From assembly GCA_902595285.1 (NCBI GenBank), contig CACJPL010000002.1, forward strand, positions 1 to 64,000: a stretch of 64,000 bases of DNA, given 5' to 3'. Positions within the stretch are counted from its first letter, which is position 1. Each line of letters opens with the position of its first letter. Under the pieces are notes generated by a model. It made no database searches and was not told the origin of the DNA. It saw only the letters and a program-made list of their open reading frames with translations. Position numbers and translations under genes: made by a program. The DNA is from an uncultured Pelagibacteraceae bacterium. GTDB taxonomy: Bacteria; Pseudomonadota; Alphaproteobacteria; Pelagibacterales; Pelagibacteraceae. Below, one piece after another: positions 12,217 to 42,301 of the stretch.

Positions 12217-14289
12217 ATGTTTAAAGTATACAAGAAGGAAATTGAAGTAGCAGGAAAGAAGATAAGTGTAGAAACAGGTAAAGTAGCAAGACAGGCAGAC
12301 GGTGCAATAATCGCAAAATGTGGAGAGACAGTCGTATTAGCAACAGTAGTGGGGGCAAAAAAAGTTAATCCTGATATGGATTACTTTCCATTATCTGTAA
12401 ATTACCAAGAAAAATATTATGCAGCAGGGAAAATTCCTGGTGGATATTTTAAAAGAGAAGCAAGACCAACTGAAAGCGAAACATTGATCTCTAGATTAAT
12501 TGATAGACCAATCAGACCATTGTTTCCTGATGAATTTAAAAATGAAGTTCAGTTATTACCAACTGTAATTTCATATGATAAAGAAAATGAACCAGATATT
12601 TTATCAATCACTGCTTCATCAGCGGCATTAGCTATATCAGGAATGCCATTTATGGGTCCCGTAGGAGCTTCAAGGGTTGGTTTTATAGATGGAAAATATG
12701 TGTTAAATCCATCTAAAGCAGAATTAGAAAAATCAAAATTAGATTTAGTCGTAGCAGGTACAAAAGATGCTGTGCTTATGGTTGAATCTGAAGCAAATGG
12801 TTTAACTGAAGAAGAAATGTTGAACGCTGTTAAATTTGGTCACGAAGGTTTTGTTTCAGTAATTGAGATGATAGAGGAGCTTGCAAAAGAATGTAGAAAA
12901 CCTGAGTGGACTGTTGAAAAGAAAGATCTATCAGAAGTTAAGAAAAAATTAGAAGAAACTTTTACAGAAGATCTTAAAAAAGCTTTTGCAACAAGAGATA
13001 AACAGGATAGATCAAATCAAATTTCAGAGATCACTGATAAAGCAAAAAAACTTTATGAAGAAGATGAAAATTACACTGATCTAGATGTTAATAGTCAGTT
13101 GAAAAATCTTGAAAAATCTATTGTCAGAACTGATATCCTAAAAAACAAAAACAGAATTGATGGTAGAGGCTTATCAGATGTCAGACCAATTTCGTGTGAA
13201 GTTGGAGTTTTACCAAGAGCTCATGGATCTGCATTGTTTACTAGAGGAGAAACACAAGCGATTGTAGTTGCAACTTTAGGAACATCTGATGATGAACAAA
13301 GAATTGAAAGTTTAGATGGTCTTCAAAGAGAACGATTTATGCTTCACTATAATTTTCCTCCTTTTTCAGTTGGAGAAACAGGACGAATTGGAACTGGTAG
13401 AAGAGAAATTGGACATGGTAAATTAGCCTGGAGAGCGATTAATTCTTCGTTACCTACAAAAGAAGCATTTCCATACACTTTTAGAGTAGTTTCAGAGATT
13501 ACTGAGTCTAATGGTTCTTCTTCAATGGCTACTGTTTGCGGAACTTCTTTAGCATTAATGGATGCTGGAGTACCAATTAAAGAGCCAGTTGCGGGTATTG
13601 CAATGGGATTAATTAAAGAGGGCAATGATTTCAGTGTTCTATCAGATATTTTAGGTGATGAAGATCACTTAGGAGATATGGACTTTAAAGTTGCTGGAAC
13701 TAAAGATGGAATAACTTCTCTTCAAATGGATATCAAAATTACAGGTATTACATTTGAAATCATGGAGCAAGCTTTGAGCCAAGCTAAAAATGGAAGAGTC
13801 CATATCTTGGGAGAAATGAATAAAGCATTATCAGCTTCAAGATCTGATGTTGGAAAGCACACCCCTAAAATGGAACAGGTAAATGTTGATAAAAAAGACA
13901 TTGCTGCTGTGATTGGAAAAGGCGGTGCAACGATTAGAGAAATTGTTGAAAAATCAGGTGCAAAAGTAGATGTAAATGATGAAGGTGTAGTAACAGTTGC
14001 TGCTCCAGATGAAGAGTCTAGAAATATTGCTATGCAAATGATTAAAGACATCACTGCAAAAGCTGAATTAAATAAAATTTATTCTGGTAAAGTAATGAAG
14101 ATTATGGAGTTTGGTGCATTTGTTAATTTTTTAGGAAAACAAGATGGGCTTGTTCATATTTCAGAACTTGCGGACAAAAGAGTAGCCAAGGTTACAGATG
14201 TTGTAAAAGAGGGTGATGAAGTAAAAGTAAAAGTAATCGGTTTTGATAGAGGAAAAGTTAAACTTTCAATTAAACAAGTAAGTGAATAA
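12217..14289 (+). CDS. pnp: Polyribonucleotide nucleotidyltransferase
   Basis: [29 protein letters not shown], two RNase PH domains, KH ([15 protein letters not shown]), S1. Confidence 0.98.
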
Positions 14290-39313: not shown

Positions 39314-41044
39314 ATGAATTTAGATAATTTAAATAATTTGATAGAATTATTTGCTAACCAAGCAAATAAACAAAATAAAAGAGATATTTTTTTAGAATGG
39401 CTAAACCCGAGGAATAAAAAAACATACACATGGGAACAAACTGAAAAGAATATTTTAAATTTATCAAAAGTTATTAAAGAAAATATAAAAGAAGGTGATA
39501 GATGTCTTTTAGTTTCAGAAAATAGACCTGAGTGGTTTGTTTCTGATTTAGCTATAATGTTAGCTGGTGGAATTACAGTTCCAGCATATACAACATATAT
39601 AGAAGATGATTATAAGTATTTGATAGAAGATTGTGAACCTAGCTTAGTTATTGTTTCTAATAATGAAATGCTAAAAAAATTAAATAATATAATTAATGAA
39701 AAAGACTTTATTAAAAAAGTTATAACTTTAGACGAAATAGCCAAGGTAACGAATAACTTAAGTTTAAATAACAAAGAAAGATATTTAGATTATAGTTCTA
39801 TTATAAAAAATAATTTGTTAGTAGAAGATAAAATTGAAAATAACAAATTAAAAAGAAACTCTCCTGCATGTATCATTTATACTTCTGGAACCGGAGGAAA
39901 TCCCAAGGGGGTAATTTTAAGTCACGGTGGAATTTTAAATAATGTTGTTGGATCTTGTGAAATTACAAAACCATTATTTAATTCAAGACCAGTATTTTTA
40001 ACTTGGCTTCCGCTTTCTCATTCTTATGAGCACTGTCTTCAATTTGTACAGATAGCTGTAGGAGCAAGAGTATTCTATGCTGAAAAAATTGAAAAACTTC
40101 TAGAAAATATATCTGAAGCAAAGCCTACAATTATGGCAGCTGTCCCTAGGTTTTACCAAAACCTTTATAATAAAATAAACATGAATTTAAAAAAACAAAC
40201 AGGTTTTAAAGCAAAATTAATTGAAGCAACTCTTCGTCTGGGAAGAAAAAAACTATTAAATCAAAAAATGATTTTTTCTGAAAAATTAGTGAATTTTATA
40301 GTTGATAGATTAGTTAGAAAAAAAATCAAAAAACAGTTCGGTGGAAATTTGAAAGCTTTTGTTTCAGGTGGTGGTGCCTTAGACAGAGAAATAGGTGAAT
40401 TTTTAAATGCTATAGGACTACCAACACTACAGGGTTATGGTTTAACAGAAACATCGCCAGTGGTAAGTTGCAATCCAATACATAAAATAAAAGTAGAAAC
40501 TGTAGGACCTCCATTTAAAGGAAATGAAGTTAAAATTGCTGAAGATGGAGAAATTTTGGTTAAAGGTGAAAATGTAATGCTAGGATATTGGAACAAAAAA
40601 GAAGAAACTGAAAAAGTAATTATAAATGGATGGCTACATACAGGTGATATTGGAGAGATAGATCCAAATGATGGCTATTTAAAAATAACTGATAGAAAAA
40701 AAGATATTATAGTTAGTGCTGGAGGAGACAATATTTCACCAGCTAAAATTGAAAATATGATTACAAATGAGCCAGAGATAGATCAATGTATGGTTTATGG
40801 TGATAAAAAAAATTATTTAGTAGCGTTGATAGTGCCTAATAAAGATTTTTTAAATGAAAAAGAAAAAATTAATGAAGTAATTAAAAAAATAAATACAAAG
40901 TTAACTTTATTGGAAAAGATAAAAAAAATTCAATTAACAGATGAAAATTTTTCTATTGAAAATGGTTTAATGACACCAACAATGAAAGTAAAAAGAAAAA
41001 AAGTTACTGAAAAATATAAAAATCAATTAGAAAATCTTTATTAA
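39314..41044 (+). CDS. AMP-dependent long-chain fatty acid-CoA ligase
   Basis: IIYTSGTGGNPKGVILSHGG, GYGLTETSPVVSCN, GWLHTGDIGEID, ITDRKKDIIVSAGGDNISP. Confidence 0.93.
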   Translation: MNLDNLNNLIELFANQANKQNKRDIFLEWLNPRNKKTYTWEQTEKNILNLSKVIKENIKEGDRCLLVSENRPEWFVSDLAIMLAGGITVPAYTTYIEDDYKYLIEDCEPSLVIVSNNEMLKKLNNIINEKDFIKKVITLDEIAKVTNNLSLNNKERYLDYSSIIKNNLLVEDKIENNKLKRNSPACIIYTSGTGGNPKGVILSHGGILNNVVGSCEITKPLFNSRPVFLTWLPLSHSYEHCLQFVQIAVGARVFYAEKIEKLLENISEAKPTIMAAVPRFYQNLYNKINMNLKKQTGFKAKLIEATLRLGRKKLLNQKMIFSEKLVNFIVDRLVRKKIKKQFGGNLKAFVSGGGALDREIGEFLNAIGLPTLQGYGLTETSPVVSCNPIHKIKVETVGPPFKGNEVKIAEDGEILVKGENVMLGYWNKKEETEKVIINGWLHTGDIGEIDPNDGYLKITDRKKDIIVSAGGDNISPAKIENMITNEPEIDQCMVYGDKKNYLVALIVPNKDFLNEKEKINEVIKKINTKLTLLEKIKKIQLTDENFSIENGLMTPTMKVKRKKVTEKYKNQLENLY

Positions 41045-41162: not shown

Positions 41163-41219
41163 TTGACATAACTTATAGAAAAAAATAAAAATATAGTAAT
41201 AGCGAATCAATTTGATTCG
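41163..41219 (+). promoter_or_regulatory. Candidate promoter and dyad upstream of the Lys/Arg-rich peptide gene
   Basis: TTGACA at 41163-41168 followed by an AT-rich -10 region; perfect dyad CGAATCAA-T-TTGATTCG at 41203-41219. Confidence 0.5.
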
Positions 41220-41243
41220 TTTAACTAAAAAAGGGAGCTAAAG

Positions 41244-41336
41244 ATGCCTAAGAAAAGAAAAAAAGCGGCAAAGAAAACTAAGAAAAAAGCTAAGAAAAAA
41301 GCTAAGAAAAAAGCAAAAAAAAGAAGAAGAAAATAG
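41244..41336 (+). CDS. 30-aa highly basic Lys/Arg/Ala peptide (MPKKRKKAAKKTKKKAKKKAKKKAKKRRRK)
   Basis: ATG with GGGAG 8 nt upstream, uninterrupted to TAG, followed by intrinsic terminator; below ORF track length cutoff. Confidence 0.75.
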   Translation: MPKKRKKAAKKTKKKAKKKAKKKAKKRRRK

Positions 41337-41354: not shown

Positions 41355-41397
41355 AAAAAACGCTTCTCATTACATTTTGTGTGAGAGGCGTTTTTTT
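41355..41397 (+). terminator. Intrinsic terminator after the basic peptide gene; complementary A run may serve the convergent CarD gene too
   Basis: AAAAAACGCTTCTCA-ttacattttgtg-TGAGAGGCGTTTTTTT. Confidence 0.85.
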
Positions 41398-42301
41398 ATT
41401 CTTCGATAGGTTCATCAGCTTCTGAAATTGGCTCATCCTCAGAAATTACAGCTGGTGCAGCTTTTACAGCTGCTGCTGATTGTGATTGTGGACCTAAATT
41501 TCTTTTTAATGCTTTATCTAATTTTTTTTGTGTATCTTCTAACGATATATTTAGCACAATTTGGAATTCTGATAAAATTCTCTCATAAGCTTTTTCAAAT
41601 AATTGCCTTTCACTATAAGATTGATCAACCATAAGATCATCACCTTTATTTAAATCTCTAACAACCTCAGCCAATTCATAAATTTTCCCAGATGAAATTT
41701 TAGCTTCGTATTCCTGTGCTCTTCTGCTCCACATAGATCTTTTAATTTTTGGCTTACTTTTTAATATAGATATACATTTATTTACTTGGTTAATTGTTGA
41801 CAATGGTCTTAGATGAGACTGTTTGTTTACAGGCACCATTCCATTAGCTTTATCTTTTTCAAATTTAATTACATAAGTTTCAACATCAATCCCACCGATA
41901 TTAATTTTTTTAAATTCATTAATTTGACCAACCCCATGTTTTGGATAAACAACATGGTCTTTAATTTTATATTCTCTTTTTTCAGTTTCTTGTTTTTTAA
42001 CTTTTTTAATCTCTGGCTTAACTTCATTTGTTTTAGAAATTCTTAAATTATCTACTTTAGTCTCAACTGGGGTTATGGTTTTCTTAGTAGTTTTTTTTGT
42101 CTTATTTACTTTTGGTGAAACTCTTTTTAAGATTTTTTTACTTTTTTTTATAATTATTTTTTTATTTTTTGTTGTTTTTTTAACCTTTGATACTTTTTTT
42201 TTTGTAACTTTTTTTTTCAATTTATTATTGTTTGTTTTACCTTTAAAGATTTTCTTTAAAATATTTTTCGTACTTATTTTGCTCATTTTTAAATTTTTCA
42301 T
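41396..42301 (-). CDS. CarD/CdnL-family transcription regulator with long lysine-rich N-terminal extension
   Basis: [49 protein letters not shown] (CarD domain), [26 protein letters not shown]; ~100 aa Lys-rich N-terminus; start may be 42286. Confidence 0.87.

Follow-up and report, generated by a model that had tools for sequence, protein, structure and literature searches.

The window, as the whole stretch of 64,000 nt analysed here is called, includes an ORF of 30 codons at positions 41244-41336 of the forward strand that translates, in the list of ORFs for the window, to MPKKRKKAAKKTKKKAKKKAKKKAKKRRRK, exactly as given in an earlier account made from the letters alone (the sequence-only reading). 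The peptide has 18 Lys and 4 Arg residues and a net charge of +22; the Lys/Arg density described in that reading is real, but the count of 21 given there is one short of the actual 22. Lys/Arg codons make up 73% of the ORF. As judged by the ORF itself, its conservation, its composition and its codon use, the feature is assigned as the gene for a Lys/Arg/Ala-rich, H1-like microprotein. There is no other gene between the AMP-binding, acyl-CoA-ligase-like gene at 39314-41044 (forward strand) and the convergent CarD-family gene at 41396-42301 (reverse strand), the product of which was identified by protein family search as a CarD/CdnL-type RNA-polymerase-binding protein with a Lys-rich N-terminal tail. 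One ORF of at least 20 aa with at least 60% Lys and Arg was observed in the window; 100 Markov copies of the window contained none. A degenerate DNA pattern for the peptide gene matched once in its own genome, and a reversed-pattern control had no match in 197 genomes of the order Pelagibacterales. That 41244-41336 is a real gene is virtually certain.

The signals around the ORF are those of a small transcription unit. The SD-like GGGAG reported in the sequence-only reading does precede the ATG, and the upstream TTGACA is present at 41163-41168, 80 nt 5' of the ORF start at 41244, where it is followed by an 18-nt spacer and a weak -10 element, AAAAAT, at 41187-41192. As a consensus match, this sigma-70-type promoter (41163-41192, forward strand) is weak and no better than chance, since matches of such grade number one found against 1.4 expected. 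Its support comes instead from relatives, in which the -35 element and the AT block 3' of it are conserved; TTGAC(A/T) is kept at this position across the genera of family f1 (Pelagibacteraceae) and in the sister family f2. The strong intrinsic terminator was confirmed at 41355-41396 (-21.8 kcal/mol, z = -6.3) and is conserved in relatives. It is bidirectional and common to the convergent CarD gene, the stop codon of which overlaps its T-run. The peptide gene has a promoter, a 5' hairpin, a ribosome site and a terminator of its own, the terminator also serving CarD.

The 5' leader includes a dyad, AGCGAATCA-ATT-TGATTCGTT, at 41201-41221 (forward strand), which is recognised by its fold (-12.3 kcal/mol, z -2.5) and its conservation, and which starts about 9 nt 3' of the -10 element, close to where the mRNA is predicted to begin. 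The 5' arm, CGAATCA, is common to all genera and the inner stem varies by genus, being CACATA/TATGTG in g2, CACTTAAA/TTTAAGTG in g3/g4 and CAC/GTG in f2. Within family f1 the stem is nearly invariant, which limits the pair counts there; G-U pairs in g5 and g6 would favour an RNA hairpin over a DNA operator. In its simplest role, the hairpin would probably serve as a 5'-terminal stem that stabilises or protects the mRNA. The sequence-only reading did not contain this structured leader, nor the series of orthologs and the antisense match with rhtB RNA that are described below.

Conservation and translation of the peptide gene

The CarD protein was used as the anchor for finding peptide loci across genomes, because similarity searches fail on the low-complexity peptide. 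For the same reason, a profile HMM built from the peptide alignment missed most of the real copies when applied to the whole order, and it was replaced by the degenerate DNA pattern together with CarD anchoring. The ORF was present at each of the first 50 CarD loci of the window's genus and at 60 of 62 CarD-anchored loci of Pelagibacterales, the remaining two of which end at a contig edge. With the degenerate pattern it was detected in the majority of the f1 genomes (genera g1-g6). Among the 16 genomes of this family negative for the pattern, 13 also lacked a CarD match, and hence the locus rather than the peptide alone is absent from those assemblies; of the other three, two have CarD at the edge of a contig, in one case only in part, and the third has a peptide variant of 20 aa, MAAKRKAAKKSKKKAKKRSR. 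The 13 genomes from which CarD and the peptide are jointly missing are estimated to be 89-98% complete, suggesting that the locus breaks assemblies or was lost as a block.

No such ORF was found 3' of CarD in other Alphaproteobacteria (28 loci and 40 further stretches, from partly overlapping genomes), and the sole match in these loci, L339, is located 5' of CarD. Use of the pattern across the wider class was abandoned, as it gave mostly chance matches in GC-rich genomes, where matches to reversed-pattern controls were also common. The strict pattern found no copy in viral contigs. A genome from a different alphaproteobacterial family (G527) has a stand-alone gene for a 58-aa MAKKKKKAAPKKKKK repeat protein with its own terminator (L146:1888-2110, minus strand), located between aconitase-like and ccmA-like genes about 6 kb from CarD; it may or may not be related to the SAR11 gene. 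As judged from the genome sequences, the peptide gene is near-universal in Pelagibacterales.

Across the six genera of Pelagibacteraceae, the peptide has 20-58 aa and consists of Lys, Arg and Ala, with Thr and Pro in some. Its length is 34-58 aa in g4, 36-38 aa in g2, 31 aa in g3, mostly 20-35 aa in g1 (one of 41 aa) and 22-24 aa in g5/g6. In the sister family f2, all seven genomes carry at the same place and in the same orientation an ORF of 76-91 aa (MEELKVIFAKARKKAKKKAAPKKKRKAAKRKPAKKKAAPKKK...RRKKRR). In front of this ORF are the same TTGACA promoter and a leader hairpin that likewise has GAATCA as its 5' arm. The f2 orthologs carry KKKAAPKK repeats, and their presence at the orthologous position strengthens the resemblance to H1 tails that the sequence-only reading had recognised by composition. 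In both families, length varies by in-frame gain and loss of repeats, with the frames kept. The overall composition of 67 distinct proteins is 54% Lys, 18% Ala, 18% Arg, 4% Thr and 2% Pro, with no acidic residues. The f1 and f2 proteins have no alignable core, and a meaningful alignment of them is impossible; position, promoter and leader DNA suggest that they represent one gene that has been shrinking. Neither the peptide nor its relatives of 58-91 aa matched a profile in Pfam or NCBIfam, and no chain among all PDB chains matched the peptide at E<=10. The window peptide has no folded or helical N-terminal domain, and the f2 orthologs have only a short MEELKVIFAKA start.

Translation of the ORF is indicated by several features. 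Its residues are confined to Lys, Arg, Ala, Thr and Pro, rarely Ser, Gly or Val; indels among orthologs are triplets that keep the frame, and neither frameshifts nor stops were seen in close relatives. The sequence-only reading had named decay of the ORF in syntenic relatives as the finding that would speak against it; the ORF proved to be conserved there, with in-frame indels, restricted composition and CarD synteny. In equal-length comparisons pN/pS is 0.37, a value inflated by shifts of the repeat register. The best evidence is the placement of codons. KKK runs are encoded as AAG-AAA-AAA, and, counting one CDS per distinct protein, AAA-AAA-AAA occurs once among 161 KKK triples against 59+/-5 expected after within-gene shuffling of AAA and AAG. 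The longest A-run averages 7.2, compared with 9.0 after shuffling, and of 17 KKK runs in the window's ordinary genes, 11 consist of AAA alone. Consecutive AAA codons, not AAG, make ribosomes slide (PMC9207662), and the avoidance of AAA-AAA-AAA therefore implies that correct synthesis of the product has been under selection. As related sequences are not independent, this argument rests on the size of the effect and not on a p-value. The ORF at 41244-41336 is, on such features of its sequence, very probably translated.

An antisense match between the ribosome-binding site and rhtB RNA

The 14-nt segment GGGAGCTAAAGATG (41233-41246, forward strand), which extends from the SD to the start codon, is invariant in all 79 distinct units of genus g1, the window's genus, collected without using the SD, and occurs in none of 14 elsewhere. 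The SD-to-ATG spacer within this region, CTAAAG, is dispensable for SD function and is invariant only in the genus with rhtB. The genome includes only two copies of GGGAGCTAAAGATG, and the second is the opposite strand of the loop of an rhtB RNA. On the minus strand the second site scores 79.9 bits against the Rfam family RF01814 (cut-off 55), and the minus strand of 41205-41270 itself gives 27 bits to this family. The second site was also considered as another microprotein (MAKKDYLTDNIRG), and this was rejected, as the frame is not kept in comparison, the hairpin is kept, and Rfam identifies the site as rhtB RNA. The rhtB motif was described in 2009 as a candidate motif in Ca. P. ubique, a hairpin with a conserved loop for which no target or function was given (PMC2704228), and a literature search found no paper on rhtB after that description.

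The hairpin assigned by Rfam (G000:C9, about 13980-14065; L002:1474-1554; minus strand) lies directly before a LysE-family gene (L002:868-1482, minus strand), and its 3' stem holds AAGGA, possibly the sequestered SD of that gene. Of 44 rhtB loci, most have a LysE-family gene (PF01810) with its ATG 4-14 nt beyond the end of the hairpin. About eight loci lack this arrangement, which suggests a function in trans. A conserved promoter-like motif, AATGCA...TATATT/TATTAT, is located 5' of rhtB in most of the 44 loci, and together with the U-run and the Rfam orientation it indicates which strand of rhtB would be transcribed. The stem beside the loop covaries (CCTTC..AAGG, CCATC..TTGG and CCTATC..TAGG).

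The loop, CUUAGCCAUCUUUAGCUCCCGG, includes UAGCUCCC, and its core, UAGCCAUCUUUAGCUCCC, is antisense to GGGAGCUAAAGAUGGCUA, with 18 of 18 positions matched in MA- lineages and one mismatch in MP- lineages such as that of the window. The predicted duplex of the loop with the peptide mRNA has an energy of -33.8 kcal/mol, whereas 73 other ORF starts of the window reach -17.0 at best and 500 shuffled loops -20.2. With 14 nt of perfect match and additional pairing in the flanks, the complementarity over the ribosome-binding site exceeds that of a generic anti-SD. The core is constant across loci except for one base in genome G300, a change that weakens the pairing. Loop and target from the same genome pair at -36.4 and from different genomes at -35.6; as both partners are nearly invariant, conservation is shown and covariation offers no proof of pairing. 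Targeting is supported by the co-distribution of rhtB and the invariant start region, RF01814 being above the cut-off in 33 of 39 genomes of the window's genus and in none of 26 relatives. Pairing with the loop, at -25 to -29, is also predicted for the homologous starts from other genera. On these sequence comparisons, pairing of rhtB with the peptide mRNA is quite likely to be functional. Leaders from g2/g4 and f2 (L088-L092 and L309-L316) include a CTCC/CCTC stretch able to pair with the SD (GGAG/GAGG), a hint that translation may be controlled in another way in the absence of rhtB RNA.

Proposed role of the peptide and alternative readings

Known bacterial proteins of similar composition are the H1-like proteins or tails represented by Hc2 of Chlamydia, the C-termini of AlgP and PhaF of Pseudomonas, and BpH1 of Bordetella, all of which share with the SAR11 peptides a Lys/Ala(/Pro/Thr)-rich, low-complexity, repeat-built and length-variable sequence. 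Hc2 varies in repeat number (PMC2848022), and the H1-like tail of AlgP binds DNA (PMC9239181). The f1 peptides are much smaller (20-58 aa) than Hc2 (165-237 aa) and the AlgP tail (195 aa; PMC2848022, PMC9239181). Unlike AlgP and Hc1, the window peptide has no folded N-terminal domain, and at 73% Lys/Arg it is denser in these residues than H1-like proteins and gave no profile match. It is apparently the miniaturised end of an H1-like series, a remnant of a histone-H1-like DNA-packing protein.

The neighbouring CarD protein also bears a basic element. Its Lys-rich N-terminal tail in SAR11 is about 90-100 aa long and as a rule missing from CarD of other Alphaproteobacteria; in genus g3 (L087, L308) this tail contains an AT-hook-like KRGRP. 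Derivation of the peptide from the CarD tail was unsupported, the longest DNA common to the two in one genome being 11 nt. In-frame Lys-rich N-terminal extensions, roughly 40-70 aa long, were also seen on metabolic enzymes in several SAR11 genomes (acetyl-CoA-synthetase-like in L086 and L153, aldehyde-dehydrogenase-like in L147 and L154). For full activity, CarD of Myxococcus depends on a basic disordered domain, and other such domains can take the place of its HMGA-like tail (PMC4374960). As in Myxococcus, a CarD-family RNA-polymerase-binding domain is paired with a basic element in SAR11, where CarD has a Lys-rich tail of its own; SAR11 differs from Myxococcus in that a free basic peptide is also encoded, by a convergent gene of its own. 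As Myxococcus CarD accepts substitute basic domains, a functional linkage between SAR11 CarD and the free peptide is worth testing.

The composition of the peptide makes H1-like binding of nucleic acid likely. A polycation with a charge of about +22 and no fold would bind DNA and/or RNA through contacts of Lys and Arg with phosphate, and the bound peptide would contribute to condensing or neutralising the nucleic acid of a very small cell. The 5' hairpin would probably protect the mRNA and, in genus g1, the rhtB loop would pair with the SD and start codon and block binding of ribosomes. At loci where rhtB lies just before the gene for a LysE-type exporter, pairing could possibly also open the exporter leader, giving reciprocal control. 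The explanation as a whole, namely a translated monocistronic gene for a miniaturised, nucleic-acid-binding H1-like microprotein controlled by rhtB in the window's genus, is considered reasonably probable. A more specific version for the dominant SAR11 genus, in which pairing of the antisense rhtB with the gene for a condensing microprotein of 20-35 residues also switches the LysE-type exporter leader and so links packing to the Lys/Arg economy, is put forward only tentatively.

Other readings of the locus share parts of this evidence. The peptide could be a basic microprotein associated with the ribosome or with RNA, rather than a nucleoid protein, as its extreme charge fits rRNA as well as DNA. 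It resembles the ribosomal microproteins eL41 (eukaryotic) and bTHX (bacterial) in size and charge, its length of 20-35 aa and its composition being within their range. Such a role is nevertheless unlikely, given the lack of a match among all PDB chains and of linkage to ribosomal genes, and the free drift of length and repeat number over 20-91 aa, which would not suit a ribosomal protein seated in a fixed pocket. The H1-like tail of AlgP also accompanies localisation to polyphosphate granules (PMC9239181), and the peptide might by analogy bind polyphosphate or phosphate-rich granules rather than bulk DNA; no gene linkage of this kind was seen and the same chemistry serves DNA, and this reading is very unlikely.

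The remaining alternatives concern the ORF rather than its product. With 22 Lys/Arg codons, 73% of the total, and with complementarity between the start of its mRNA and a hairpin, in the leader of a LysE-family gene, whose 3' stem holds an AAGGA that could be the SD of that gene, the ORF might mainly be a sensor that reports charged tRNA and tunes the LysE-type exporter via pairing with the rhtB leader. However, the gene and its H1-like composition occur in genera and a family without rhtB, where the protein reaches 91 aa, and the choice of codons works against slippage, as it would for a product in need of correct synthesis; a role mainly as sensor is accordingly judged quite improbable. A non-coding RNA, with the ORF a by-product of A-rich sequence in an AT-rich genome, would account for the structured leader and the terminator, but not for the in-frame indels, the restricted residues, the pN/pS, the invariant SD and start, the interruption of A-runs by AAG or the absence of such ORFs from the Markov simulations, and has a negligible probability.

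SAR11 bacteria, which rank among the most abundant cells on Earth, have streamlined genomes with few known regulators. The peptide gene was previously unannotated, and the peptide is too rich in Lys and Arg for tryptic proteomics. Its antisense link to rhtB is unexpected, and for this Rfam family, an orphan since 2009, the match supplies the first specific candidate target. The series from 91 to 20 aa bears on how far an H1-like protein can shrink, and a near-universal gene that has no match in the profiles and PDB chains searched would change the view of nucleoid organisation in SAR11.
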